Numbered from the stretch's first letter, positions 42,876 to 59,964 are shown. The stretch is 64,000 nt of DNA from Pyxidicoccus trucidator (GCF_010894435.1 NZ_JAAIXZ010000014.1:62001-126000), one strand, 5' to 3'. Notes: a model not told the origin generated them from the letters alone. Numbers and translations: made by a program.

Positions 42876-42909
42876 CGGGCAGGCACGCCGTGGCGGACGG
42901 AAGGCGCGG

Positions 42910-43599
42910 CTACTTCGCCTTCAGCTCGTACTCGCCACCCGGGTAGACGAACGAGTCGCGGGGCGCGTACCAGCACCACGCCTCCACCTTCTGCAGCGGG
43001 CTGGCCGGCCGCAGCGCGTACACCGGGTGGTCCGGCGCCAGGAAGTCCAGGGACTGGAGCTCGAAGCCGGCGGCAATGTCACCGACGTAGGGGTAGTTGC
43101 CCGCCATCAGCTTGTTCTTCACCTGTGTCACGTACATGAGCTGACCGCGCGCCACCGAGGCCACCTGCTGGCCCACCCGCGCCACGGCGCGGATGATGGG
43201 GATGCCGTCCACGCGAGTCACCGCCACCAGCCGGCCGTCCTCCAGGTCCAGCGTCGTGGTGCCCGCAGAGGCGGGGACGCCGCGCTCGCTCACGTAGTCG
43301 CGCACCGTCTGCGACGAGTTGAGGTAGTGCGTGAAGAAGCGGCCCGGTGTCACGCCGTCCGGCGCCGTGTGGTCCGCGAGGTCCAGGCCCAGGTACGTCA
43401 GCGAGTACGCGCCGAAGCCCGACGTCTGGTCCGCCGAGTCCACCACGTACTGGTTCATGTAGATGGCGCGGTTGGCCGCGGGCGACAGCCCCCTGGGCAG
43501 CAGCGCGGCGGCGGCCCTGCGGTCGGCGGGAATCCAGCTCGAATAGAGCATGCGGCTGTTGAGGACGAGCTGCGGCGCGGCGAGGGTACTGGTGGACAT
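42910..43599 (-). CDS. Acetoacetate decarboxylase-like protein
   Basis: 229 aa. The acetoacetate decarboxylase (ADC) beta-barrel type is suggested by AAALLPRGLSPAANRAIYMN, ARVGQQVASVARGQLMYVTQ and HPVYALRPASPLQKVEAWCW. A lysine in QVKNKLMAG is a possible Schiff-base residue but cannot be assigned with certainty. Many ADC-fold proteins act on other keto acids or only bind ligands. Convergent with the TPP enzyme gene, 34 bp apart. Confidence 0.65.
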   Translation of the reverse strand: MSTSTLAAPQLVLNSRMLYSSWIPADRRAAAALLPRGLSPAANRAIYMNQYVVDSADQTSGFGAYSLTYLGLDLADHTAPDGVTPGRFFTHYLNSSQTVRDYVSERGVPASAGTTTLDLEDGRLVAVTRVDGIPIIRAVARVGQQVASVARGQLMYVTQVKNKLMAGNYPYVGDIAAGFELQSLDFLAPDHPVYALRPASPLQKVEAWCWYAPRDSFVYPGGEYELKAK

Positions 43600-43738
43600 G
43601 ATGGCTCCTGGACGGGTGAGCTCTCTTCAATTCATTCGGAGCCAGCCACGCGGTCTGGTTGTCGTCCATCGTCCCGCCGGGCCGCCGCGTCCTGGTGCGG
43701 TGCGGCGGCGACGCTCTCGCACACCGCCGCTCCACGAG

Positions 43739-46645
43739 TCACAGCGCGCGGTTGAGGGTGACGGGGGTGGCGCGTCCCTCGCGGAGGATGAGGAGCGTGG
43801 CCGGACTGCCCGGCGCGCCCAGCTCACGGTGGCGGGCCTCGCCCGGGTCGTGCACGGAGGCCCCGTCGATGGCCTTCACCACGTCACCCAGGCGCAGTGA
43901 CGCGGCCGGGCCTCCCTCCGCCAGCCAGCTCACGGTGACGTCGTCCCCGCTCATCGCGAAGTGGAGCCCCAGGCGCCCAGGCTCCACCCGGGCCGGACCC
44001 ATGCGCCAGTCGCCCAGGTCCTCCGCCTTGCCGGACGTGAGTGTCACCTGCCGGTCCGCGAGCTGCCCACCGCGGCCCCACGCAATGACACGGTGCGGAC
44101 CCGGCGCGAGGTCCTCCACCCGGAAGCGCCCATCCGCGCCCACCTGCGGCGAGAAGACTCCGTCCACGTCCACGAAGCCGCCCGCGAGGGGCGCACCTGA
44201 GGCGTCGACCAGCCGGCCGGAGAGGCTGCCTCCCGCCTCGACGACGAGGTCCACCTGGGCGGTGGCGCCAGCGGTGACGGTGGCCTCCGCCTTCCCGGCG
44301 CGGCCGTCCGGCAGCGTGGCGGTGAGGGCCACCCGTCCCGCCACCATGTCCTCGACGACGAAGCGGTCTCCCGCGAAGTCCAGCTCCTGCCGGGTGAGGA
44401 AGTCGTCGTCGCTCCGGAGGGCGGTGGCCACCAGCCGGAAGCCCTCGACGGCGCGGCCTCCTCCCGAGCGGACGGTGCCCGTCAGGCGTCCTCCTGCCGT
44501 GAGCTGGAGGGTGACGGCCGTGCGCGTCGACGGCACCGAGGGCAGGTCTCCCCGGCGTCCGCCGTTGGTGGCCCAGAAGTGCACCGCGGGCCCGCCGATG
44601 GAGTCCGCCACCATCGTCACCTGTCCGGAGGCGTCGGTGACGTCCTCCAGGAGCACCTCGTACTTGCCGGGCTCGCTGCCCATCACCGTGGCGCCGACGC
44701 TGGGCGCGCCGTTGGGTTCGAGCACCGTGACGACGATGGGCTTGCTCGGCTCGCTCACCTCCAAATCCACGCGCTTCGAGCCTCCGGCCTCCAGCTCCAC
44801 GACCTTCTCCTGGTCGCTATTCTGGCTGGCGGAGTCCGCCATCCAGGCGGTGAGCGTGTAGCGGCCCGCGCGTACTCGCATCGACCAGGCGCCGTCGGGA
44901 GTGGCCGCGACCTTCACGGCCTCGGTGTAGGGGGCGCCCGCCCGCAGGGCGGAGACGGTGACGGGCTTCGGGGGCACCCGGCCTCCCCGGAGCCGGACGG
45001 TGCCTTCGAGCAGGCCCTCCCCGGTGAGCTGGAGGCGGACGCGGCTCGTCTCTCCCGGGAGGACCTTCACTGGCTCGCGGACATGCGTCTCGCTGCCGGG
45101 GCGGCGGGCCGCGACATACACCTCTCCCGGGGGCATCCCTTCGAGGACGAAGCCGCCCTGCGCATCCGTCACCGTGACGAGCGCGCCCTCCAGCGGCGCC
45201 ATGCGCCAGCGCGTCTCCGGGGTGACCTGGATGCCCGCCAGGGGCTTCGCGTCCCCGTCCACCACCGTGCCCTCGATGCGACCGTGCGCGGACAGCTCGG
45301 CAAGCAGGTCGAAACGCTGGCCGTCCAGCACGCTCACTCCGCTCCGCATCAGTGTCTTGAAGCCCCGGGCCCGCACCGTCACCGAGTACAGCCCCGGCGC
45401 GAGCGCTCCCGCTTCGAACCGTCCGTCCGCTCCGGAGACGGCGCTGGCGACCTCGGCCTGGGTGTCGTCCAGGCTGAAGGTGAGGGCGCCCGGGGTGATG
45501 GAGATGTTCGCACCGCCGATGGGCTCACCCGAGCCCTTGCGCCGCACGAGGCCTGTGAGTGAGGCCGCTGCCCCCAGGCGGATGCGGACGTCGCGGGCCG
45601 TCATTCCCGCACCCACCACGACTCGCGACGGTGCCGCGCCCGTCAGCGCTCCCTGGCTCGCGGAGACCTGGTACACGCCGGGGGAAACGTCGAGCGAGAA
45701 GCCTCCGCCCTCGCTGGTGTCGGTCTGCACGGCGTCTCCCGTGCCGGAGGCGACCACCCGTGCCCCGAGGGCCGGCTCTCCGTCGGGCAGCTCCACGAAC
45801 CCCTCGAGGAAGGCCGAGCCCTCCAGCTCGACGGTGAGCCCGGAGGAGGGCACGTGCACACGCCCGAGCCGCTTCGGCGCGCGCCCCGGCGCCCGGGCGT
45901 CCAGCTGGTACTCGCCCGGCGCCAGTCCCTGGAAGCGGAAGTCGCCGCGGCCGTCACTGGTGGTGGCGTGCTGCTCCTCCTCCGGCATCGACGCCCCCAT
46001 CCACAGCGCGGTGGGCTGCACGACGTCATGGCGGGACGAGCGCGGCGTCAACGTGAGCTCCACCAGCGGTACGGGGGTCCGCGAGCCCCGCTCCACGGTG
46101 GCGCCTTCGAGAAGGACTCCCGCGTCGAGCATGAGCCGCACCGAAGTCAGGGCTTCGCCTCGGGGCCGGGTGACGTGGGCTCGCGCGATGGCGAGGCCGT
46201 CCGCCCGGGCGGTGACGAGGTAGTGCCCCGGTCTCGCGGGGAGCACGACGACTCCCGCCGCATCGGTGACGCCGGTGCCCGCCACGAACCAGTCGGGCCG
46301 TCCCGCGCGGGAAGCAACGAGCTCCCGGAGGTAGAGCGTCACCCGCGCTCCCGCCCGTGGCCCCGAGGCGGTGAGCACCTCGGTGCGAAGGGTGCCTTCC
46401 TCCTCGCGCATCGGCTCCGCGATGCGCGGGGTTCCGTCTTTCGCGAGGTCGCCGGGCGTCGCGCCACGCTGCGCATCGCCGCCTGCGTCGTTCTGGAGAG
46501 CGGGGCTCCGAGGCGCCGACGTCGAGGCCGTCTGGGCGGGCCCGGGTGACGCCGGGCCGCCGCTGTCCGTGCCGCCAGCCCACCAGAGCCCGAGGCCAGC
46601 GAGGACCGCCACCACAGCCACCAGAGCGAGTGTCTTCCGTCTCAT
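43739..46645 (-). CDS. Large carboxypeptidase-regulatory-like surface protein with C-terminal PDZ
   Basis: 968 aa from ATG 46645. One N-terminal membrane anchor (MRRKTLALVAVVAVLAGLGL), then a chain of about eight beta-sandwich repeats of the carboxypeptidase-regulatory/Cna-B kind, each with signatures like GDFRFQGLAPGEYQLDARAP and GGFVLEGMPPGEVYVAARRP. Near the C-terminus a PDZ-like domain (GLHFAMSGDDVTVSWLAEGG, LRLGDVVKAIDGASV) follows. Such proteins are exported and abundant in myxobacteria; the PDZ end suggests it binds a protein partner. It diverges from the winged-helix regulator at 46795 and shares its upstream repeats. Confidence 0.85.
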   Translation of the reverse strand: MRRKTLALVAVVAVLAGLGLWWAGGTDSGGPASPGPAQTASTSAPRSPALQNDAGGDAQRGATPGDLAKDGTPRIAEPMREEEGTLRTEVLTASGPRAGARVTLYLRELVASRAGRPDWFVAGTGVTDAAGVVVLPARPGHYLVTARADGLAIARAHVTRPRGEALTSVRLMLDAGVLLEGATVERGSRTPVPLVELTLTPRSSRHDVVQPTALWMGASMPEEEQHATTSDGRGDFRFQGLAPGEYQLDARAPGRAPKRLGRVHVPSSGLTVELEGSAFLEGFVELPDGEPALGARVVASGTGDAVQTDTSEGGGFSLDVSPGVYQVSASQGALTGAAPSRVVVGAGMTARDVRIRLGAAASLTGLVRRKGSGEPIGGANISITPGALTFSLDDTQAEVASAVSGADGRFEAGALAPGLYSVTVRARGFKTLMRSGVSVLDGQRFDLLAELSAHGRIEGTVVDGDAKPLAGIQVTPETRWRMAPLEGALVTVTDAQGGFVLEGMPPGEVYVAARRPGSETHVREPVKVLPGETSRVRLQLTGEGLLEGTVRLRGGRVPPKPVTVSALRAGAPYTEAVKVAATPDGAWSMRVRAGRYTLTAWMADSASQNSDQEKVVELEAGGSKRVDLEVSEPSKPIVVTVLEPNGAPSVGATVMGSEPGKYEVLLEDVTDASGQVTMVADSIGGPAVHFWATNGGRRGDLPSVPSTRTAVTLQLTAGGRLTGTVRSGGGRAVEGFRLVATALRSDDDFLTRQELDFAGDRFVVEDMVAGRVALTATLPDGRAGKAEATVTAGATAQVDLVVEAGGSLSGRLVDASGAPLAGGFVDVDGVFSPQVGADGRFRVEDLAPGPHRVIAWGRGGQLADRQVTLTSGKAEDLGDWRMGPARVEPGRLGLHFAMSGDDVTVSWLAEGGPAASLRLGDVVKAIDGASVHDPGEARHRELGAPGSPATLLILREGRATPVTLNRAL

Positions 46646-46719
46646 TCCAGCTCCCGAAGCCAACCGTCATCGGATGGCGCGTAGGACAGCAGGCCGGTTG
46701 CTCCGGATCCAGCCCACCC

Positions 46720-46787
46720 CCGACAAAGTCCGTGGCCCACCGACAAACTTTCTTTGTCTTGACCAAGGAAGTTTGTCGGCGTTAGAA
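46720..46787 (+). promoter_or_regulatory. Leaderless promoter of the winged-helix regulator with CCGACAAA operators
   Basis: CCGACAAAGT at 46720-46729, CCGACAAACTT at 46740-46750 and its exact inverse AAGTTTGTCGG at 46769-46779. Between the inverted pair sits TTGACC (46759-46764), then 17 nt and TTAGAA (46782-46787). The ATG is 7 nt further, so transcription should start at it. The operator arms flank and overlap the -35 and spacer, as for autorepression, and the sites also lie upstream of the divergent surface-protein gene. Confidence 0.6.
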
Positions 46788-46794
46788 GTCGGGC

Positions 46795-47373
46795 ATGGCG
46801 AAGGACAGCAGCGCGGCGAAGGCCCGGCCCATGCGGGCGCGCATCCTGGAGCGGCTCGCGACGCCCACCACGGCGGCGGCGCTCTCGCGCGAGCTGGACA
46901 CGTCGCGGCAGAAGGTGGGCTACCACCTGCGCGAGCTGGAGCAGCAGGGCCTGGTCGAGCTGGTCGAGGAGCGCCGCAAGGGCAACGTGGTGGAGCGGCT
47001 GGTGAAGGCCAGCTCGCGCGCGTACCTCGTGTCCGCCGAGGCGCTGGCCTCGCTGGCCCCGGACCCCGCCGCCGCGGTGGACCGCTTCTCGTCGGCCTAC
47101 CTCATCGCCGTCGCGGCCCGGAGCGTGAGGGAGGTGGCCACCCTGCGAGAGCGCGCGCAGCAGGCGGGCAAGACGCTGCCGACCTTCTCCCTCCAGGCCG
47201 ACGTGCGCTTCGCCAACGCGAAGGCACGACATGCCTTCGCCGAGGAGCTGGCGGACACCGTCGGCCGCCTCGTCGCCCGCTACCACGATGAAAGAGTCGA
47301 GGGAGGGCGCCACTACCGCCTCTTCCTCGGCGTCCACCCCGCAGCCGCCCCCGAGAAGGAGAGCCCCGAGTGA
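46795..47373 (+). CDS. Winged-helix (ArsR-like) transcriptional regulator
   Basis: 192 aa. Short N-terminus then a winged helix: ARILERLATPTTAAALSREL, recognition helix DTSRQKVGYHLRELEQQGLV and wing EERRKGNVVERLVKA. The C-terminal 100 residues are helical and may bind a ligand. No metal-binding Cys pattern is present, so it is not a classical metal sensor. No Shine-Dalgarno is seen; the promoter layout predicts a leaderless mRNA. It overlaps the next gene by GTGA and leads the run that ends with the PAP2/isoprenoid synthase fusion. Confidence 0.85.
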   Translation: MAKDSSAAKARPMRARILERLATPTTAAALSRELDTSRQKVGYHLRELEQQGLVELVEERRKGNVVERLVKASSRAYLVSAEALASLAPDPAAAVDRFSSAYLIAVAARSVREVATLRERAQQAGKTLPTFSLQADVRFANAKARHAFAEELADTVGRLVARYHDERVEGGRHYRLFLGVHPAAAPEKESPE

Positions 47374-48146
47374 GCCAGGAGAAGACGCGCAGTCTCGAGA
47401 AGCAGGTGAAGATCAAGGCCCCTCGCGACGCCGTCTGGCGCGCGATTACCGAGGCCGACCAGATTGTCCGCTGGTTCGCGCTCGACGCGAAGGTGAAGCC
47501 GGGCGTCGGCGGCTTCGTGTGGCTGAGCTGGCCGGGCATGGCGGGCGAGGAGCGCATCGACGTCTGGGAGCAGGGGACGCACTTCCGGACGAGCAACCCC
47601 GCCCGGCCTCAAGTCGCCACCGACTGGTACGTGGAAGGCGAGGGCGGTGAGACGACGCTCCGGCTCGTGCACTCCGGCTTTGGCGAGGGCGCGGACTGGG
47701 ATGCCGAGTACGACTCGCTGGACCGCGGCTGGTCCGTGTTCTTCCAGAACCTCAAGCACATGCTGGAGCGGCATCCGGGCGCTCCCGGGCAGCAGGTGAT
47801 GGTGCCCGTGCCAGTGGGGAACGTCGGACTGGAACAGGCGTGGCAGTGCCTGCTGGGGCCGGGCGTGCTCGGCCTGGAGCGCACCGGCGAGCGGACCTTC
47901 AAGGCCCGCTCCGTCACGGGCGAGGCGCTGGAAGGGGAGGTGGACCTGTGGATGCCGCCTCGTGCGCTCGGCATCACCGTGAAGAACTGGAACGACGCGC
48001 GCTTCACCGTGGACATCAACGGGTGCGACGGCGAGGTGCGGGTCTGGGTCTGCCTGCTCACCTGGGGGCTGGATGCTCCCGCCGTCGAGGCGCTCCGCTC
48101 CCGGTGGCAGCCCGCGCTGGAAGGAATGTTCCGTCCCGCGGCGTGA
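47370..48146 (+). CDS. SRPBCC (AHSA1-like) protein
   Basis: 258 aa, GTG start overlapping the regulator stop (GTGA). The N-terminal half is an AHSA1/START-like SRPBCC fold (VKIKAPRDAVWRAITEADQI ... FQNLKHMLERHP) able to hold a hydrophobic ligand. The second half (about 145-258) looks like a second, degenerate copy ending in LRSRWQPALEGMF. An ArsR-type regulator coupled to an SRPBCC protein is a common pair; here it precedes lipid-modifying enzymes by 66 bp, which fits a role in ligand binding or transfer. Confidence 0.82.
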   Translation: MSQEKTRSLEKQVKIKAPRDAVWRAITEADQIVRWFALDAKVKPGVGGFVWLSWPGMAGEERIDVWEQGTHFRTSNPARPQVATDWYVEGEGGETTLRLVHSGFGEGADWDAEYDSLDRGWSVFFQNLKHMLERHPGAPGQQVMVPVPVGNVGLEQAWQCLLGPGVLGLERTGERTFKARSVTGEALEGEVDLWMPPRALGITVKNWNDARFTVDINGCDGEVRVWVCLLTWGLDAPAVEALRSRWQPALEGMFRPAA

Positions 48147-48212
48147 GCGCGCGCTGACAGACAGTCACGGTGTGGGTGGCCACCGGAGGGCCCCGTCCGA
48201 TAGCCTCTCCGC

Positions 48213-49184
48213 ATGGCGGTGAATGTCGTGGCGTGGGCGGATCCGGTCCGTCAACCCGAGCTGGGACGGCTCCGGGCGTGGCACCTCGTGTGCCCGTCCG
48301 AGTCGCTCCGGCGCGGGCAGGTGATGGGCTGGAGTCTCGGCGGGCGGGAGCTGGTCCTCTTCCGGGGACAGGGCGGCGGCGTGCATGCGCTGTCCGCCCA
48401 CTGCGCCCACATGGGCACCCACCTCGCGGGCGGCACCGTGGTGGGGGACTGCCTCCGCTGCCCGCTGCACCACTGGCGCTTCGACGGCAGCGGCGCCTGT
48501 CAGGCCGACGTGGGCGCCAGGTCCGGGCAGCGGCCGTTCCCCGTGGTGGAGCGCTTTGGCGCCATCCTCGTCTTCAACGGGCCGGTGGTCCTCTGTCCAC
48601 CGCCGGAGCTCGGCGCCGCGGACCTGATGTGGCGTGCCGGGCCCGCCGTCACCGTGCGCTGTGACTGGCTGCCCGTCCTGGCCAACTCCTTCGACATCGA
48701 GCACCTGCGCACCGTGCACCACCGCGAGCTGCGGGAGGCTCCGGTGGTGGAGCGGCCGGACCCGTTCACCCTGCGCCTGCGCTACACCTCGCGCGTCACC
48801 GGCTCCGGGCCGAGTGACTGGCTGATGAAGACGCTGTCCGGCAACCGCATCGGCGTCACCATTACGCTGCACGGCGGGACGCTCCTCTCCGTGGAGAGCG
48901 ACCTGGGACGGACGCGGAGCGCCCTGGTCGCCGGCTTCCGTAAGACGCCCGAGGGCCTGTCCGTGCGGCTGGCCTTCGCCGCGCGCCGGGGACGGGTTCC
49001 GGGGATGGACAGGCTGTCGCTCGCGGTGTCCCGGTGGCTCTTCACGTCCTTCCTGCGGCGGGACTTGTCCGTGCTCCATGACATGCGCTTCAACGCGGTC
49101 GGCGCCGCGGAGGACCCCGTCCTGAAGCAGTTGTTGGACTTCACCGCCAGCCTGCCCGAGGACCGCGATGACGAGCGAGGGTAG
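48213..49184 (+). CDS. Rieske non-haem iron oxygenase
   Basis: 323 aa. Rieske [2Fe-2S] ligands Cys64/His66 in CAHMGTH and Cys83/His86 in CPLHHW. The mononuclear iron site is visible as NSFDIEHLRTVHHREL (His164, His169). The size and single-chain plan match oxygenases acting on sterols and polycyclic lipids (KshA, cholesterol 7-desaturase/DAF-36, SdmA type) more than classical ring dioxygenases; this is inference. No reductase is adjacent. Its 3' end overlaps the desaturase by 17 bases, so the two are probably translated together. Confidence 0.88.
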   Translation: MAVNVVAWADPVRQPELGRLRAWHLVCPSESLRRGQVMGWSLGGRELVLFRGQGGGVHALSAHCAHMGTHLAGGTVVGDCLRCPLHHWRFDGSGACQADVGARSGQRPFPVVERFGAILVFNGPVVLCPPPELGAADLMWRAGPAVTVRCDWLPVLANSFDIEHLRTVHHRELREAPVVERPDPFTLRLRYTSRVTGSGPSDWLMKTLSGNRIGVTITLHGGTLLSVESDLGRTRSALVAGFRKTPEGLSVRLAFAARRGRVPGMDRLSLAVSRWLFTSFLRRDLSVLHDMRFNAVGAAEDPVLKQLLDFTASLPEDRDDERG

Positions 49185-50088
49185 GGACACGTCCATCCCC
49201 GCCACCCTCAACGTCGTGCTCCTGGCCTCCGCGCTCACCGTGGGCGCCGGGTGCCTGTGGCTGGCCTCGCACGCGGACACGTGGGCCGTGCGGCTGCTGG
49301 CGGCCGTGGGGTTCTCCTTCGTGAACAACACCGTGTTCTCGCTGCTCCACGAGGCGACGCACGGGGTGCTCCACCCATCGCGCCGGGTGAATGACGGGCT
49401 CGGGCGCGTGGCGGCGGCGCTGTTTCCGACGTCCTTCACCATGCAGCGGGCCTTCCACCTCAACCACCACCGCCACAACCGGACGCGGCTGGAGCAGTTC
49501 GACTACTTCCGGCCCGGGGACAACCGCTTCCTGAAGCGCGCGCAGTGGTACTCCATCCTCAGCGGCCTCTACTGGCTCTTCGTGCCGGTGGGCGCGGTGG
49601 CCTTCGCGCTCGTTCCGGGGTTGCTGCATCGGCTGCGCGGCACCGGCACCCGCTATGGCGAGCAGACCGGCGCGGACGCGTACCTGGGCCGTCTGGAGGA
49701 TGCGCCTGGCGCCGCCATCCGCTGGGAGGTGCTGCTGGCGGTGGCAGTGCAGGCCGGGCTCATGGTGGCGCTGGACCTGTCCGTGACGGGGTGGGCGCTG
49801 TGCTACGCGGCCTTCGCGGTCAACTGGAGCGGGCTCCAGTACGCGGACCATGCGTGGTCTCCGCTGCACGTCCGAGATGGGGCGTGGGACTTGCGGGTGG
49901 CCGCGCCCGTGCGGTGGCTGTTCCTCAACTACCACTACCACCGCGCGCACCACCGGCATCCCCATGTGCCGTGGCTGCACCTGGAGCGCTACGTGGATTC
50001 GAGTGTGCCCCGTCCGTCGTACCTTCGCGTCTGGCTGTCCATGTGGCGCGGGCCCCGGCCGCTGCCCGTCACGGTGGAGGAGCCATGA
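49168..50088 (+). CDS. Membrane di-iron desaturase/hydroxylase
   Basis: 306 aa. Histidine boxes HEATH (61-65), HLNHHRH (97-103) and HYHRAHH (256-262), plus a His in YADHAW near 228. At least four membrane helices. The pattern fits fatty acid desaturases and the related carotenoid ketolase/hydroxylase group. Starts inside the Rieske gene and ends in ATGA shared with the micro-ORF at 50085. Together with the isoprenoid-synthase-like fusion downstream, a terpenoid or polyprenyl substrate is as likely as a fatty acid. Confidence 0.87.
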   Translation: MTSEGRDTSIPATLNVVLLASALTVGAGCLWLASHADTWAVRLLAAVGFSFVNNTVFSLLHEATHGVLHPSRRVNDGLGRVAAALFPTSFTMQRAFHLNHHRHNRTRLEQFDYFRPGDNRFLKRAQWYSILSGLYWLFVPVGAVAFALVPGLLHRLRGTGTRYGEQTGADAYLGRLEDAPGAAIRWEVLLAVAVQAGLMVALDLSVTGWALCYAAFAVNWSGLQYADHAWSPLHVRDGAWDLRVAAPVRWLFLNYHYHRAHHRHPHVPWLHLERYVDSSVPRPSYLRVWLSMWRGPRPLPVTVEEP

Positions 50089-50156
50089 GCCAGCGCTCAG
50101 TGCTGTTCGGTCTGCCCCAGCGCAGGCCGCTTCCCGCTTCGGTGGAAACACGATGA
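50085..50156 (+). CDS. 23-residue micro-ORF resembling the N-terminus of the next gene
   Basis: ATG at 50085 overlaps the desaturase stop (ATGA), and its TGA overlaps the next gene's ATG at 50153 (ATGA). The peptide begins MSQRSVLFGLPQRR; the next protein begins MSPRPALFGLPRRE, identical at 9 of the first 14 positions, and the DNA is similar too. It may be a coupling peptide, or the remnant of a duplicated 5' end left after deletion. Both flanking overlaps are intact, which argues that its translation matters. Confidence 0.55.
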   Translation: MSQRSVLFGLPQRRPLPASVETR

Positions 50157-51670
50157 GCCCGCGCCCCGCCTTGTTCGGCCTGCCCCGCCGGGAGGAGCTG
50201 GTCCTCACCGGCTCGCTCACCGTGGGCTTCGCGCTGTTCTTCCTCGCCGTGTACGGCGGCGCGAGCTGGGTGACGGGCTTCTATTCCGGCGGCCTCCGCG
50301 TGGAGCTGCCGTTCGAGCGGCACATCCCGTTCGTCCCCGCGTGGGCGGCGGTCTACGTGAGCATGGACGTGCTGCTGCTGCTGTCGCTGCTCGTCTTCCG
50401 CACGTGGCGGGACATGGTGCCCTTCGCGCTCGCGCTGTGCGTGGAGACGGTGGTGGGCGCGGTGGGCTTCCTGGTGCTGCCCGTGGAGGTCGCCTGGCCC
50501 GCTCGCGTCGTGCACGGCGGCTGGGCCGAGGTCTTCTTCCTGGCCGACACGATGAACCTGGAGCGCAACTACCTGCCGTCGCTCCACGTGGCCTTCGCGT
50601 GCACCGCCGCGCTGGCATATGCGGAGCGCTCGGGCTGGCTGGCGCGGACGGTGTTCGGGCTGTGGGCGGCGGGCATCGCCGCGTCCACGCTGCTCATCCA
50701 CGAGCACCACCTGGTGGACGTGGTGGCGGGCGCGCTATTGGCCTGGTGGACGTGGCGGCTCGTCGCGCCCCGGGCCCGCCGTGAGGACTTCTTGAATGCG
50801 CTCCACGTGGAGGCGCTCTGTGCCCGGGAGCTGTTCCGCTTCTCCCGGCGGCACCTGCGCTACGCGCTGATTGCCCTGGCGCTCTATCGCTACTCGCTGG
50901 GCCGGTGGTGGCGCGCCGCGCGGGTGGCCCGGGTGGGGTTCTGCTTCCTCCAGCTCGTGGACGACGTGCTGGACGGAGACCGGCGCATCGAGGGCGAGCC
51001 GCTCGACTGGGTGGACGCGCTCCTGGTGGAGCTGGAGACGGGGCGCGCGCAGGACACCGGGACGGCGGCCACGCTGGGACGGGTGCTGCTGGCCAGTCTG
51101 GAAGACCGGGAGGCGCGGGGGCACGTCTTCCAGCTCATGCGCACCATGCGCGCGGACCGGGAGCGGGTGCTCGGGCGGCGGTGGCTCGGCGCCGAGGCGC
51201 TCCGTGCGCAGCACCGGGACACGTTCCGGCTCTCCGTGGACCTGATGCTGCACGTGGCCGGGGCGGGAGTGCGTGCCTCGGATGCTCCGGCGCTCATCGA
51301 CGCGTTCGGCTGGTGCTCCAGCCTGCGAGACCTGCGCGAGGACCTGGCGCAGGGGCTCTACAACGTGCCGGCCGAGGTGGCGGAGGAGGTGAGGACCGAG
51401 GGGGCGGACCCTTCGGACTGCGACGCGCTGCTCGCGTCGGCCGCCGGGCGCGCGTGGGTGGTGGGGGAGTACGCCCGTGCTCGCACGCTGTTGGATTGCT
51501 GCTCGGTGGAGCTGGCCGCCCTCGAAGGGCGCGCCGGGGTGCCACTGCTGCGGCTGTTTCACCGCTCCATCGAGAGCTTCTGGGCGAAGCGGCTCCCCCG
51601 CCGCATGCCCTTCCTTCGCGACGCGGCCCGGCTCAGGCCGTGGCCTTCCGGCGCCGCGTCCGGCCGATGA
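50153..51670 (+). CDS. Fusion of PAP2/AUR1-like lipid phosphatase and squalene/phytoene-synthase-like domain
   Basis: 505 aa. Residues about 15-205 form a multi-helix PAP2_3 domain with LPSLHVAFA (His145) and HEHHLVDVVAGALLA (His186, Asp189), the catalytic pattern of AUR1-type phosphotransferases and lipid phosphate phosphatases. Residues about 215-485 resemble head-to-head isoprenoid synthases: first Asp motif LVDDVLDGD (270-275) and second SLRDLREDLAQGLYNVP (390-406), like the RDxxED motif of squalene/phytoene synthases. Inferred job: join or bind prenyl diphosphates and remove phosphate in one chain at the membrane. Its 3' end overlaps the convergent SnoaL-like gene by 38 bases. Confidence 0.8.
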   Translation: MSPRPALFGLPRREELVLTGSLTVGFALFFLAVYGGASWVTGFYSGGLRVELPFERHIPFVPAWAAVYVSMDVLLLLSLLVFRTWRDMVPFALALCVETVVGAVGFLVLPVEVAWPARVVHGGWAEVFFLADTMNLERNYLPSLHVAFACTAALAYAERSGWLARTVFGLWAAGIAASTLLIHEHHLVDVVAGALLAWWTWRLVAPRARREDFLNALHVEALCARELFRFSRRHLRYALIALALYRYSLGRWWRAARVARVGFCFLQLVDDVLDGDRRIEGEPLDWVDALLVELETGRAQDTGTAATLGRVLLASLEDREARGHVFQLMRTMRADRERVLGRRWLGAEALRAQHRDTFRLSVDLMLHVAGAGVRASDAPALIDAFGWCSSLRDLREDLAQGLYNVPAEVAEEVRTEGADPSDCDALLASAAGRAWVVGEYARARTLLDCCSVELAALEGRAGVPLLRLFHRSIESFWAKRLPRRMPFLRDAARLRPWPSGAASGR

Positions 51671-52256
51671 CGAAGCCGGCGAGGAGCGCGCCAATCGCAA
51701 CGATGGAGAGCAGCCCCGCCCCGTAGTTCTTCATCTTCGAGAGCAGCGGGTTGTCGAACACGTTGGTGGAGTAGTGGAAGGCGGCGATGAGCCAGCGGTC
51801 GCCCTCGCGCACCATGGTGCACGTCCACCGGCTGTCGATGACGATGTCCGTGCCGTCCGTGAGCACGTAGTGGTCCTTGGACGAGCCCCGGGCGATGCCG
51901 GTGTTGCCGTAGAGGCGGGTGAGGTCATCCACCTCGAACTTCGCGGTGACCTTCTCCACCACGCGGTTCGGCCCGCGCATCATCTCGTCGTAGTAGGCGC
52001 GGATGGCCTCCTTGCCCACGCGCACGTCGTTGTTCATGGTGGTGAAGACGACGTCCGGGTGCAGGTGCGTCAGCATCCGGTCCACGTCCTGCTTGTTGAG
52101 CGCGTCCTCCATGTCCTGCTTGAGGGCTCGCAGTGCGATGTGCGTGGCCTCCACGTCCGGAGGCGCGCCACCGGGCGCGGCGGCCTCCTGGGCCAGGACG
52201 GGCGCCGAGAGGAACGAGAGCAGCAACGCCACCACACAGCCGAGGGTCCGCGTCAT
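51633..52256 (-). CDS. Exported SnoaL-like (DUF4440) protein with C-terminal membrane anchor
   Basis: 207 aa from ATG 52256; upstream frame to 52508 is not homologous. Signal peptide (MTRTLGCVVALLLSFLSAPV, cleavage after LAQ), an NTF2-like domain (IALRALKQDMEDALNKQDVD ... HPDVVFTTMNNDVRVGKEAI ... WTCTMVREGDRWLIAAFHYS) and a final hydrophobic helix (LLSIVAIGALLAGFVIG) before RTRRRK. So the domain faces the periplasm with an inner-membrane anchor. NTF2-like proteins bind or isomerise small molecules; the ligand is unknown. The anchor is unusual for DUF4440. Confidence 0.8.
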   Translation of the reverse strand: MTRTLGCVVALLLSFLSAPVLAQEAAAPGGAPPDVEATHIALRALKQDMEDALNKQDVDRMLTHLHPDVVFTTMNNDVRVGKEAIRAYYDEMMRGPNRVVEKVTAKFEVDDLTRLYGNTGIARGSSKDHYVLTDGTDIVIDSRWTCTMVREGDRWLIAAFHYSTNVFDNPLLSKMKNYGAGLLSIVAIGALLAGFVIGRTRRRKATA

Positions 52257-52437: not shown

Positions 52438-55407
<2,970 letters not shown>

Positions 55408-55492
55408 TGCGGCCGGGATCGCTCCCGGCGGATGGCACTCGGGGGCAGGTGAGAGTACACCGGTAGCGGGTGTTCCTGCCCTGGGGGGATGG

Positions 55493-57160
55493 ATGAGCCA
55501 TTTCGCACAGATGTCCAAGGCGGATTTGGTTCGCGCCCTTGAGAAGCTGGAGCCGGTGCGGGTCGCTCGGGACGCGCTGACCGCCACGGTGCAGGAGCTG
55601 CAACGCCACCAGATAGAGCTGGAGATGCAGAACCGCGCGCTGCGTGAAGCCCAGCAGGCGCTGGAGCAGTCCCACCACCGCTACGTGGACCTCTATGACT
55701 TCGCCCCCGTGGCGTATCTCACCCTGGACGCGCGGGCCTGCATCCAGGAGCTGAACCTCACGGCGGCGGCGATGTTGGAGCGGGAGCGCCCCCAGCTCCT
55801 GGGCCAGCCCTTCACGCCCTTCGTCGAGGGGGCGGACTCGGCCCGGTTCCTCCAGCACGTGCGCCACTGCGCGGTGGAGGGGAAGGTGGGGAGCCTGGAG
55901 GTGAGGCTGCGCCTCGCGGGGAGCCGGGCGGAGGTCCGGCTGCACACCGCGCCCTTTCCGAGCGGAGCGCCGCAAGGCGGCCAGGTGTGCCGGGTGGCCC
56001 TGGTCGACCTCACCGAGCTGCGCGAAGCGCAGTCCCGGCTGGAGCTCGCCGAGCGGCTGGCGTCGCTGGGCACGCTGGCGGCAGGGGTGGCGCACGAGCT
56101 GAACAACCCCCTGGCCTTCATTGGCCAGTGCCTGGAGCTGGCCCGCCTCCGGATGGGGGAGCGCACCGCCGGGGCCGTGGAGAAGGAGGTCCAGGAGCTG
56201 CTGGTGGACGCGGCCGTGGGCACCGAGCAGCTGCGCTCCATCGTCCGCGACCTGCACACCTTCGCCCGCGCGGAGGAGGAACGTCAGGAGCGGGTGGACG
56301 TGCGCGAGGTGCTGGGGCGCTCCGTCCGGATGGCCCAGGGGGAGATCCGCCATCGCGCGAGGCTCGTTCGGGACGAGACGGAGGTGTCGCGGGTGCTGGC
56401 CAACGAGGGCCGGCTGGGGCAGGTGTTCCTCAACCTGCTGGTGAACGCGGCGCGTGCGATTCCTGTGGGAAATGCGAGTCAGCATGAGATTCGCGTCGTC
56501 ATCCGGGATGAGCCGGGCTCGGTGGTGGTGGAGGTGCGCGACACCGGCCAGGGCATTCCGCCGGAGCGGCTGGAGCGCATCTTCGACCCCTTCTTCACCA
56601 CCCGGCCGGAGGGCCAGGGGTTGGGGCTGGGGCTCAGCATCAGCCACAGCCTGGTGACGCGCATGGGCGGTGAACTCACGGTGGAGAGCGAGCCGGGACT
56701 CGGCAGCCTCTTCCGCGTCCGGCTGCCGGCGGCGCCCGCCGTGTCCGGCCCGCCTGCCCAGCTGCCTTCACCCCGCCTCCCGAAGCGGCCCACCCGGAGG
56801 GGACGCATCCTCATCGTGGATGATGAGCCGAAGCTGGTCCTGACGCTGGGGATGCTGCTGGAGGAGGAGCATGACGTGACGCGCTCCCTGAAGGCCCGCG
56901 AGGCCCTGGAGTGCATCCAGGCGGGGCCTCCGTTCGATGTCATCCTCTGTGACTTGATGATGCCGGAGATGACCGGCGAGCAGCTCTTCGAGGCCGTGTC
57001 CGTCGCGGTTCCCGAGCAGGCACTCAGGATGGTCTTCATGACGGGCGGGGCCTTCACGGACGGGGCCCAGCGCTTCCTGGAGCAGGTGAAGAACCCGCGG
57101 CTCATCAAGCCCTTCCGCGTGGACGAGCTGGAGGCGGTGCTCGCGCGGGTGATGGGTTGA
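55493..57160 (+). CDS. PAS sensor histidine kinase with C-terminal receiver
   Basis: 555 aa from ATG 55493, soluble. An N-terminal coiled coil (ELQRHQIELEMQNRALREAQ) is typical of proteins that partner CheB-CheR-PAS sensors; PAS about 63-180; HisKA His201 in AGVAHELNN; HATPase with DTGQGIPPERLERIFDPFFT; receiver about 435-555 (ILIVDDEPKLV, acceptor Asp in VILCDLMMPEM). It lies 85 bp after the CheB-CheR gene and likely forms one signalling unit with it. Confidence 0.9.
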   Translation: MSHFAQMSKADLVRALEKLEPVRVARDALTATVQELQRHQIELEMQNRALREAQQALEQSHHRYVDLYDFAPVAYLTLDARACIQELNLTAAAMLERERPQLLGQPFTPFVEGADSARFLQHVRHCAVEGKVGSLEVRLRLAGSRAEVRLHTAPFPSGAPQGGQVCRVALVDLTELREAQSRLELAERLASLGTLAAGVAHELNNPLAFIGQCLELARLRMGERTAGAVEKEVQELLVDAAVGTEQLRSIVRDLHTFARAEEERQERVDVREVLGRSVRMAQGEIRHRARLVRDETEVSRVLANEGRLGQVFLNLLVNAARAIPVGNASQHEIRVVIRDEPGSVVVEVRDTGQGIPPERLERIFDPFFTTRPEGQGLGLGLSISHSLVTRMGGELTVESEPGLGSLFRVRLPAAPAVSGPPAQLPSPRLPKRPTRRGRILIVDDEPKLVLTLGMLLEEEHDVTRSLKAREALECIQAGPPFDVILCDLMMPEMTGEQLFEAVSVAVPEQALRMVFMTGGAFTDGAQRFLEQVKNPRLIKPFRVDELEAVLARVMG

Positions 57161-57161
57161 G

Positions 57162-58835
57162 TCACGAGGTCGGGAGGGCCTTCCCGTCGCGGGCCCGCAG
57201 CGCGTCCGCGAGGCGGACCGTGTCCTTCACGGGATCCCATGTGCCCAGGGCCCAGGGCAACACCTCGTCCAGGATGGCCTGCCGGAGCTCCCTCGTCGCC
57301 TGGTGGGGCTGGAGCGGCGTGGGGGACTCCTGGCTTCCGCCCAGGGCCCAGGTGATGACGGACTCGCGGCTGAGCGCGCGGCTCGCGGCGTAGACGCACG
57401 AGGCGAGAGCGCCTCCCTCGCTCTCCTCGAGCAGCGCTTGCTGGGAGGAGGCGGGCTCCTCCGAAGGGAGGCAGAGGGTGGCGTACGTCACCGACCAGGC
57501 CGCGGAGAAGGCGTCCGGCGAGGACATCTGACTGGGAATGATGTTCCCGTGATGCCGGGCGCTCCGGACGTGGTCCTCGGAGGGCTGACATACCCACCGG
57601 TCCATCGCCATGACGGCCCGCCGGGCCCCGTCGTTGCTCGGCTGCTGGTATTCCCACAGCCCCAGCACCCGGCGCGCGGCGGCCAGGGCGACACGAACGG
57701 TCAGCTCGGGGCCGAGCTCCCGCAGCCCCGCGGCCCAGTGCGCGACGCTCTTCGCCGGGGCCTCGGAGGGCTCCCGGGGTGGCGGCAGCGCTCGTAGCAG
57801 CGCCGTGACGCGTGGGTCCTGGACCTGCCCCGGGGCGAGGGCTGGCGCACGGCGGCGGAGCACGTCGCGGGCGATGTCGTCGATGGCCGCGTCCACGTAG
57901 GGGGCCAGAAGGGAGAGGGCCGTCAGCTCGAGGAGCCCTGGAATGGCGGGCAGGCCCCGCACGCCCAGCCGGCCGAGGGTGAGCAGCGCACGCAGCCCCT
58001 CCTCGCGCCGACTCAGCAATACGAAGAAGGCGTCCCGCTGTCCCAGGCGCGCATCCTCGGGTCGGTTCTCCGCCGCCTTCCGGGCCAGCTCCAGCAGCAG
58101 GGGAATGGCTCGCACCGGCTCCAGCGTCGCGAGGATTCGCAGCGCTTCGAGGCGGTTGGCGTCGTCCAGGATGGACTGCTCCTCCAGGGCCGTGACGACC
58201 TCCGCGTCACCCGGGAAGCGGCCCAGCAACTGGAGGGCATTGCGGCGCGCGTGCGGGTCGGAGTCCTCCAGCCGCGTCAGTGCCACGCTCCGCACGACGT
58301 CGGGCAGGGGGCCGTCGACCACCGCCAGCGCCTGCGCGGCCAGGCTCCTTAGCCGCGCGTCATGCTTGTCCTGGAGGCAGGGGAGGAGAGCGCGGAGGGC
58401 GGCGGCGGTGGCGCGGGGGCGCATCCGGATGAGCACCGTGAGCGCCATCCACCGCACGCGCGCGCTCGGCAGGCGCAGCGCCTCCAGGAGAGCGGGGACC
58501 GCGCACGTGGGCAGGGGCTCGAGACGTCCGAGCGTCTCGATGCACTGCGCGCGGACGCTCGCGTCCGCCTTCGGCGGGACGTCCAGCCTCGGCGTCCGCA
58601 GCGTGTCCACGAGCGCCGGCACCGCCCCCAGCCCGGCTTCGAGCACGCGCCCCACGGCTTCGCTGGAGTCGAACCACCGCGCGCGCACCTGGGCGAAGTC
58701 GGCAATCCACTCGCGCACCGTCCTGCCCTCCATCCGGAAGCCCGAGTGCACCAGGGCGGCATCCAGGCGTCGGAGGGAGGCGAGGTCGTCCGGCCGGGCC
58801 CCGCGCCGTGTCTCTTCGAGGTCGTCGTCGCGCAT
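57162..58835 (-). CDS. HEAT-repeat protein
   Basis: 557 aa, no signal peptide or membrane segment. The first 350 residues are about eight HEAT-like helical pairs (VPALLEALRLPSARVRWMAL, LRSLAAQALAVVDGPLPDVV, ARRNALQLLGRFPGDAEVVT). The last 200 residues, from EPSEAPAKSVAHWAAGLREL on, are unlike HEAT and of unknown fold. Probably a protein-binding scaffold. One base separates its stop from that of the convergent histidine kinase gene. It diverges from the patatin gene. Confidence 0.8.
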   Translation of the reverse strand: MRDDDLEETRRGARPDDLASLRRLDAALVHSGFRMEGRTVREWIADFAQVRARWFDSSEAVGRVLEAGLGAVPALVDTLRTPRLDVPPKADASVRAQCIETLGRLEPLPTCAVPALLEALRLPSARVRWMALTVLIRMRPRATAAALRALLPCLQDKHDARLRSLAAQALAVVDGPLPDVVRSVALTRLEDSDPHARRNALQLLGRFPGDAEVVTALEEQSILDDANRLEALRILATLEPVRAIPLLLELARKAAENRPEDARLGQRDAFFVLLSRREEGLRALLTLGRLGVRGLPAIPGLLELTALSLLAPYVDAAIDDIARDVLRRRAPALAPGQVQDPRVTALLRALPPPREPSEAPAKSVAHWAAGLRELGPELTVRVALAAARRVLGLWEYQQPSNDGARRAVMAMDRWVCQPSEDHVRSARHHGNIIPSQMSSPDAFSAAWSVTYATLCLPSEEPASSQQALLEESEGGALASCVYAASRALSRESVITWALGGSQESPTPLQPHQATRELRQAILDEVLPWALGTWDPVKDTVRLADALRARDGKALPTS

Positions 58836-59013
58836 GAGGGGCCACCTCCCGAGGGCAGGGACGTCCGCTGGAGTTCGTTCTGACTCCGGAGCATCGCATC
58901 ACCGGACGCGAGGGAGGGAGCGATGGTTCGGGGTGGACACACGAAGGCGCCCGGAGGCAATTCCCGCGTCGCGCCCATGCACCTATCCCTGTCGTCCTTC
59001 TCTGAGGTGTGCC

Positions 59014-59964
59014 ATGGCCATGACGGACCGTCCCGCAACGCTCGTGCTCTCCGGTGGTGGCGCCAAGGGTTCCTTCCAGGTGGGCGCGGAGCGCGTCCTG
59101 CGCGAGGTCCACGGCTTCCGTTGGGAGCGCGTCTTCGGTGTCTCCGTGGGAGCGCTCAACGCCTCGCTCCTGGCACAGCAGGCGTACCGGGAACTGAACG
59201 ACATCTGGCTGAACATCCGCGAGGCCGACGTGTACCGGAAGTTCGCCTGGCCCGTCATCGCGCTCCGGCTGGGCCTGCTCCGCAAGCTCGGGCTGTATGA
59301 CGGCACGCCGCTGCGGGACTTCATCCAGCGGAAGGTCGCTGGACGCCCGTTCGTCGTTCCCGCCCATGTGGGCCGGGTGTCCCTGGTGTCCGGCCAGTAC
59401 GAGCTGGTGCCCAGCGACTCGAAGGACTTCCTGGAGGCCGTGTGGCACAGCGCCACCATGCCCATCATCTGGGAGCCCATCGGCCCCAACGCCATCGTCG
59501 ACGGCGGGCTGCGCAACAACACCCCGCTGGGAGACGCGCTGGAGTTCGGACCGACGGAAATCGTGGTCATCGCCTGTGCCTCGCCGAAGCTGGAGGCGGC
59601 GAAGCCCCCGGTCAACCTCCTGGATGTGGTCAAGCGCGGGCTCGTCGACATCACCCTCAACGAAATCCTCCTCAACGACGTGGAGGCCTTCGTCCGCATC
59701 AACGACATCGTCCGGCAGGCGTACGACGAGGGCCTGACGTTGCGGAGGCCGGACGGCGTGCCCTACCGCTACTGCCGCATCACCGTCATCGAGCCGGCGA
59801 AGCCCCTGGGGGACACGCTCGACTTCTCGCCGGAGATGGTCCGCATGCGCATGCGGCATGGCGAGGAGATGGCCCGCTCCGCCATGCGGCCCACAGGTGT
59901 GGGCCCGGGCGAGGTCATGCCGCCGCAGGTGGGGCCCTTCGCGGTGCCCCCGCTCCACGCGTAG
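59014..59964 (+). CDS. Patatin-like phospholipase
   Basis: 316 aa from ATG 59014 after GAGG. Oxyanion loop SGGGAKG (13-19), nucleophile Ser44 in GVSVG, and the dyad Asp163 in VDGG, so the Ser-Asp dyad is complete. No signal peptide: a cytoplasmic or injected/exported lipase acting on membrane acyl esters. No secretion-system gene is adjacent. Its strand-opposite frame is the run-on of the TetR gene. Confidence 0.88.
   Translation: MAMTDRPATLVLSGGGAKGSFQVGAERVLREVHGFRWERVFGVSVGALNASLLAQQAYRELNDIWLNIREADVYRKFAWPVIALRLGLLRKLGLYDGTPLRDFIQRKVAGRPFVVPAHVGRVSLVSGQYELVPSDSKDFLEAVWHSATMPIIWEPIGPNAIVDGGLRNNTPLGDALEFGPTEIVVIACASPKLEAAKPPVNLLDVVKRGLVDITLNEILLNDVEAFVRINDIVRQAYDEGLTLRRPDGVPYRYCRITVIEPAKPLGDTLDFSPEMVRMRMRHGEEMARSAMRPTGVGPGEVMPPQVGPFAVPPLHA

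Follow-up and report, generated by a model that had tools for sequence, protein, structure and literature searches.

We report that the Rieske oxygenase, desaturase and PAP2::synthase fusion genes in a 64,000-nucleotide stretch of the Pyxidicoccus trucidator genome (NZ_JAAIXZ010000014.1:62001-126000; hereafter the window) constitute a conserved cassette, with a convergent gene for an NTF2-like protein as its fourth member. Our preferred reading, to which we assign a probability of roughly 60%, is that the cassette is a self-contained small pathway for an oxidised isoprenoid lipid, with a near-leaderless promoter of its own and the convergently encoded NTF2-like membrane protein, and that the adjoining ArsR-SRPBCC gene pair is separate. 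What had been a vaguely drawn lipid operon thus becomes a four-gene unit with defined borders.

The positions of the features are given in Table 1. An earlier note on this DNA had described six plus-strand open reading frames, all of which were confirmed together with their junctions: GTGA overlap of the regulator and SRPBCC genes (47370-47373), a 66-bp gap before the Rieske gene (48147-48212), a 17-bp overlap of the Rieske and desaturase genes (49168-49184), and ATGA overlaps on either side of the micro-ORF (50085-50088 and 50153-50156). Pfam searches also backed the families assigned to the regulator, the SRPBCC protein, the Rieske oxygenase, the desaturase and the PAP2 half of the fusion. 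The gene set was incomplete, since the convergent NTF2-like partner had been overlooked.

Table 1. Features of the cassette and of the neighbouring unit (window coordinates)
Feature	Position	Strand	Size	Family match	Remark
ArsR/HTH_20-type regulator gene	46795-47373	+		HTH_20 4.4e-13 (Pfam)	neighbouring unit, outside the conserved cassette
AHSA1/SRPBCC protein gene	47370-48146	+		PF08327 2.9e-9	neighbouring unit
Rieske non-haem iron oxygenase gene	48213-49184	+	323 aa	PF00355 1.1e-19	
Di-iron membrane desaturase/hydroxylase gene (fatty-acid-desaturase family)	49168-50088	+	306 aa	PF00487 9.6e-27	
Micro-ORF	50085-50156	+	23 aa		apparent decayed partial duplication of the fusion gene 5' end; not a conserved part
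PAP2::synthase fusion gene	50153-51670	+	505 aa	PF14378 3.3e-8 (PAP2_3)	PAP2_3 membrane phosphatase, residues ~1-210; predicted squalene/phytoene-synthase-like class I domain, residues 212-488
NTF2/SnoaL-like protein gene	51633-52256	-	207 aa	DUF4440 2.5e-12, SnoaL_2 1.3e-9	
-10-like element TAGCCT	48201-48206	+	6 nt		6 nt before the Rieske ATG
Putative operator palindrome CCGACAAACTT-N18-AAGTTTGTCGG	46740-46779				overlaps the putative ArsR gene promoter TTGACC-N17-TTAGAA; neighbouring unit

Gene content, gene order, co-occurrence and catalytic motifs were observed directly. Of 145 genomes compared within the order, 36 carry the fusion, and these belong to only four Myxococcaceae genera (the count includes a copy in two BLAST pieces in G105 and a synthase half alone in G074). 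A scan of 84,980 species with two peptide patterns, which may miss distant relatives, returned Myxococcaceae-type loci only, apart from a record labelled as Comamonas sp. KCTC 72670 (L052, BNCN01000004.1); this record carries the myxobacterial cassette and is probably mislabelled. The Rieske, desaturase and fusion genes are directly consecutive in all examined loci except L049 (n=20), and since their order is kept at 62-93% identity in other genomes the grouping exceeds chance. Their upstream neighbour changes with clade (20 loci; four genera), and a comparison of neighbouring gene families, which likewise differ by clade, gave no further pathway gene common to the 20 loci besides the NTF2-like gene. 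Carriers of the cassette, among them genomes named Myxococcus xanthus and Corallococcus, represent tractable hosts.

The borders are marked by a natural empty site in genome G098 (locus L125), where window positions 42908-48151 and 57222-59964 align on either side of a 615-bp stretch. Homology to the window ends five bases past the SRPBCC stop codon; the ArsR-SRPBCC pair is intact, whereas the site lacks the cassette together with its NTF2-like gene and the CheB/CheR-type and histidine-kinase genes that follow the latter (window 52438-57160). L031 and L048 have these CheB/CheR-type and histidine-kinase genes; in L032 and L033 they were not detected next to the cassette. At L049 a deletion took the desaturase gene and the PAP2 part, such that the desaturase start codon is now joined to the synthase domain. 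The result is an intact stand-alone SQS-like ORF (L049:8134-9045) with all synthase motifs kept, and the synthase half can therefore exist without the PAP2 half.

The NTF2-like gene is convergent with the fusion gene, the two overlapping by 38 bp. A close homologue was found in all 36 cassette genomes and in none of the 60 other genomes of the family, and it accompanies the cassette even when several kb distant; moreover, the four proteins are correlated in their evolutionary distances (r 0.82-0.90), both observations being due in part to shared ancestry. The NTF2-like protein has a predicted signal peptide, a C-terminal transmembrane helix and a basic tail, the last of which suggests that the NTF2 domain is non-cytoplasmic. 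The active site of PAP2 phosphatases usually lies on the non-cytoplasmic side, and because the two would thus face the same side of the membrane, the NTF2-like domain and the PAP2 active site may act together there.

An AlphaFold model of the fusion based on 26 homologues (mean pLDDT 80; synthase half ~90) shows the PAP2 helices and, after them, an entirely helical domain. The structural matches listed all concerned the synthase half, for which the best match of residues 212-488 was HpnC (Z 17.2, rmsd 3.6, 244 aligned), followed by LvqB4 (Z 16.9), CqsB4 (Z 16.7) and CrtM (Z 16.2); CrtM and human SQS matched with Z 15-16. The predicted fold is accordingly that of a class I isoprenoid synthase of the SQS type. 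Both Asp-rich motifs, DDxxD (D270, D271, D274) and RDLxED (R392, D393, E396, D397), are invariant in the 26 fusion homologues. In the PAP2 half, which matches PF14378 in 26/26 homologues, the PSLH (142-145) and H185xxxD189 (HxxxD) motifs are invariant, i.e. both the C2 and C3 His motifs are present. In sequence the synthase half is less conventional: the window protein has no Pfam match in this half (PF00494 included), SQS_PSY (PF00494) matches 8 of 17 homologous domains with a best value of 2.6e-5, the match of the synthase profile to CrtB is modest (59% probability), and neither the fusion nor the synthase profile retrieved anything relevant in sequence searches of the PDB. Taken together, the model indicates a domain with a squalene/phytoene-synthase fold but a divergent sequence.

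We do not class this half as a CrtB-type phytoene synthase. The Arg of Arg-x-x-DD and the Asn of Asn-x-x-RD, invariant in myxobacterial CrtB-type proteins (R30 and N175 of A3), are Gln267 and Ser389 in the fusion, and its chemistry may therefore differ from that of CrtB. The fusion shares with PF00494 enzymes (HpnC, CrtM, CrtB) the fold and the DDxxD and RDxxxD motifs and differs from them in these two replacements, in its divergent sequence and in the PAP2 domain in front. CqsB4 and LvqB4, which we take to be SQS-like enzymes acting as carbazole prenyltransferases, have the same fold and provide a precedent for SQS-like folds as prenyltransferases, whereas they are stand-alone enzymes of carbazole clusters with no PAP2 half. 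No paper describing a PAP2::SQS-like fusion was found in literature searches that included PAP2 with phytoene synthase and presqualene. We tentatively put forward, as a proposal with the odds against it, that the fusion represents a new kind of bifunctional membrane enzyme: a single polypeptide would make a prenyl product in the cytosol and dephosphorylate it (e.g. to a presqualene-alcohol, a prephytoene-alcohol or a prenylated adduct), and so supply a class of oxidised isoprenoid lipids unique to Myxococcaceae and handled by the exported NTF2-like protein. If true, this would be an unusual coupling of chain formation to dephosphorylation.

The metal-binding motifs of the two oxidative enzymes are conserved. 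For the Rieske oxygenase, whose profile is closest to KshA (3-ketosteroid 9alpha-hydroxylase; 2.3e-21), the cluster ligands C64/H66/C83/H86 (CxH...CxxH) and the mononuclear site D161/H164/H169 (D-x2-H-x4-H) with D284 are invariant in 21 loci; a single-sequence structure model was uninformative (pLDDT 33.5). For the desaturase, weakly similar to CrtW/CrtR and with no match in a profile search against the PDB, the three His boxes H61xxxH65, H97xxH100H101 and H258xxH261H262 are invariant in 20 loci.

On the basis of the SQS fold, the SQS_PSY matches, the invariant Asp motifs, the Rieske oxygenase closest to KshA and the weak CrtW/CrtR likeness of the desaturase, we infer the substrate, reaction order, product and topology as follows. 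The cytosolic C-terminal domain of the fusion would ionise a prenyl diphosphate via the DDxxD/RDxxED metal sites and then either couple two chains head-to-head (presqualene-/prephytoene-type) or prenylate an acceptor. The membrane PAP2 half would strip the remaining (di)phosphate, yielding a prenol-type lipid that the desaturase and Rieske enzymes would hydroxylate or desaturate, and the NTF2-like domain, predicted to be exported and anchored, would bind or further convert the product at the membrane. The earlier suggestion of a pathway that builds, dephosphorylates and oxidises a terpenoid or polyprenyl lipid hence remains the most suitable interpretation of the three core genes, while its repressor control and its six genes are not supported.

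Related modules elsewhere bear on the nature of the substrate. Paralogous desaturases (42-46%) adjoin PAP2 genes in many Myxococcaceae, including the window genome (C4:471-473 kb), and in G133 and G136 the two are fused; these natural fusions (L086:8595-10145 and L087:9016-10617; 516 and 533 aa) are distinct from the PAP2::SQS fusion. As in the window, the PAP2_3 (~29-33%) and desaturase (~35-46%) parts of such pairs and fusions (G110, G133, G136 and others) are homologous and adjacent or fused, but they have no SQS-like domain and no directly adjoining Rieske gene. Plasmids of Burkholderia and Citrobacter carry clustered GH3, GNAT, PAP2 and desaturase genes with no SQS-like domain, the Burkholderia cluster also having a Rieske gene and the Citrobacter cluster five radical-SAM genes and an NTF2-like gene. 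The NTF2-like homologue on the Citrobacter plasmid (profile E 1.1e-24) overlaps the PAP2 gene near a desaturase 41% identical to that of the window. That PAP2, desaturase and NTF2-like genes come together again in unrelated bacteria suggests a lipid-tailoring module of broader distribution. Since the Burkholderia and Citrobacter clusters are devoid of it, the SQS-like half looks like a special addition of the present cassette relative to the wider PAP2-desaturase family.

The main rival reading draws on the same clusters. In these distant clusters the PAP2 and desaturase genes accompany GH3 and GNAT genes and an SQS-like domain is missing, so lipids other than isoprenoids may have been the substrates on which the two enzymes evolved, which counts against the isoprenoid reading; the cassette would then modify an acyl-amine, a sphingoid or a fatty alcohol phosphate, with the SQS-like domain having lost its prenyl chemistry and serving lipid binding or assembly. 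In keeping with this, the window genome has GNAT, GH3 and Rieske genes at a distance of ~23 kb from its paralogous PAP2-desaturase pair, and the synthase half is divergent, with the CrtB-invariant Arg and Asn replaced. However, the fusion homologues show no change at any acidic metal-binding residue of the two Asp-rich motifs, and the stand-alone copy at L049 also keeps them, unlike a catalytically dead domain; we therefore consider this rival rather unlikely, though the strongest of the alternatives. As a separate observation, genes of the GH3-type, GNAT, Rieske, desaturase and PAP2 families are repeatedly grouped in Myxococcaceae and on the Burkholderia and Citrobacter plasmids (L132/L133, L134/L135, L136, L092, L127, L129; L132/L133 being contig C4:442-473 kb of the window genome). 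The grouping looks like an undescribed family of lipid or natural-product clusters, and no paper on the five together was found in our literature search.

Less probable still is that the cassette is an accessory set for carotenoids or hopanoids, in which the desaturase and Rieske oxygenase modify pigments or membrane triterpenoids that are already present and the fusion only supplies or drains prenyl diphosphate. The weak CrtW/CrtR likeness of the desaturase and a regular SQS_PSY (CrtB-type) gene elsewhere in the window genome would agree with such a role, but many relatives have a CrtB-type gene and no cassette, and the varying neighbourhoods of the 20 loci, with only the NTF2-like gene in common, also speak against it.

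The earlier note knew of no described pathway with this set, and our searches likewise gave none with the exact set. The nearest published logic is that of the gromomycin cluster of Streptomyces sp. Je 1-332, in which one triterpenoid pathway combines Rieske oxygenases and a PAP2 phosphatase with class I prenyl synthase/transferase-type proteins and a proposed cyclase (PMC12105684); as in the cassette, genes for Rieske, PAP2 and class I prenyl enzymes share one locus. A P450, a reductase and a separate polyprenyl synthase are further members of that cluster, whose Rieske proteins number three, while no di-iron desaturase, PAP2::SQS fusion or NTF2-like gene is listed for it (PMC12105684). The cassette, with one Rieske gene and without polyprenyl synthase, P450 and reductase genes, does not match a gromomycin-type pathway.

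Upstream of the Rieske gene, a TAnnnT element begins 12-14 nt ahead of the ATG in 21/21 loci, i.e. with 6-8 nt between element and ATG, against a chance of ~2.4% per locus in shuffled upstream sequences (the related genomes are not independent). The element is conserved although the upstream genes differ and the rest of the upstream sequence diverges between clades; a plain sigma-70 scan gave no promoter at the scan threshold. We infer promoter activity for TAGCCT, as a putative leaderless-type promoter of the cassette, and therefore an independent transcription unit starting at the Rieske gene. With the order kept behind differing upstream genes and the empty site at L125, this element is why we regard the cassette as self-contained.

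A close SRPBCC homologue was found in only 6 of 96 genomes of the family, one of them cassette-free, and the ArsR-SRPBCC pair lies upstream of the cassette only in the closest relatives of the window (L031, L032, L033 and L048). The pair occurs without the cassette in G098 (L125; SRPBCC 86%), and 31 genomes have the cassette but not the pair. The palindrome and the ArsR promoter are conserved in 6/6 inspected genomes with the pair (the window, the four relatives and cassette-free L125); the palindrome is present at the ArsR promoter and was not seen in the Rieske upstream sequences. As judged from sequence, the pair is a separate unit with its own putative operator-promoter, and it is probably autoregulated. 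A six-gene operon under ArsR control, as had been proposed, in which a hydrophobic ligand sensed by the repressor would relieve repression of all the pathway genes, is very improbable: in the window and its four closest relatives the genes lie on one strand with a short gap, which would permit read-through from the ArsR promoter, but pair and cassette occur without each other, the cassette has its own promoter-like element and the palindrome sits at the regulator's own promoter. Nor was a conserved six-gene order found across the compared genomes. The earlier note had named loss of gene order in close relatives as evidence against its proposal; order is lost for the regulator, SRPBCC and micro-ORF, the adjacency of the cassette to the first two being local to one clade and the last a duplication remnant, and it is kept for the Rieske, desaturase and fusion genes.

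The micro-ORF, for which family searches gave no match, was ruled out as a small-protein gene, being a remnant that is not conserved. It aligns without gaps to the start of the fusion gene (50153-50186) over 34 bases, 27 of which are identical (starts MSQRSVLFGLPQRR and MSPRPALFGLPRRE, respectively), and its sequence identifies it as a decayed partial duplication that preserves stop-start coupling. The desaturase and fusion genes overlap directly, with no micro-ORF, in L031 and L033, and it is also absent in L034 and L037, while L032 and L048 have remnants that differ from that of the window.
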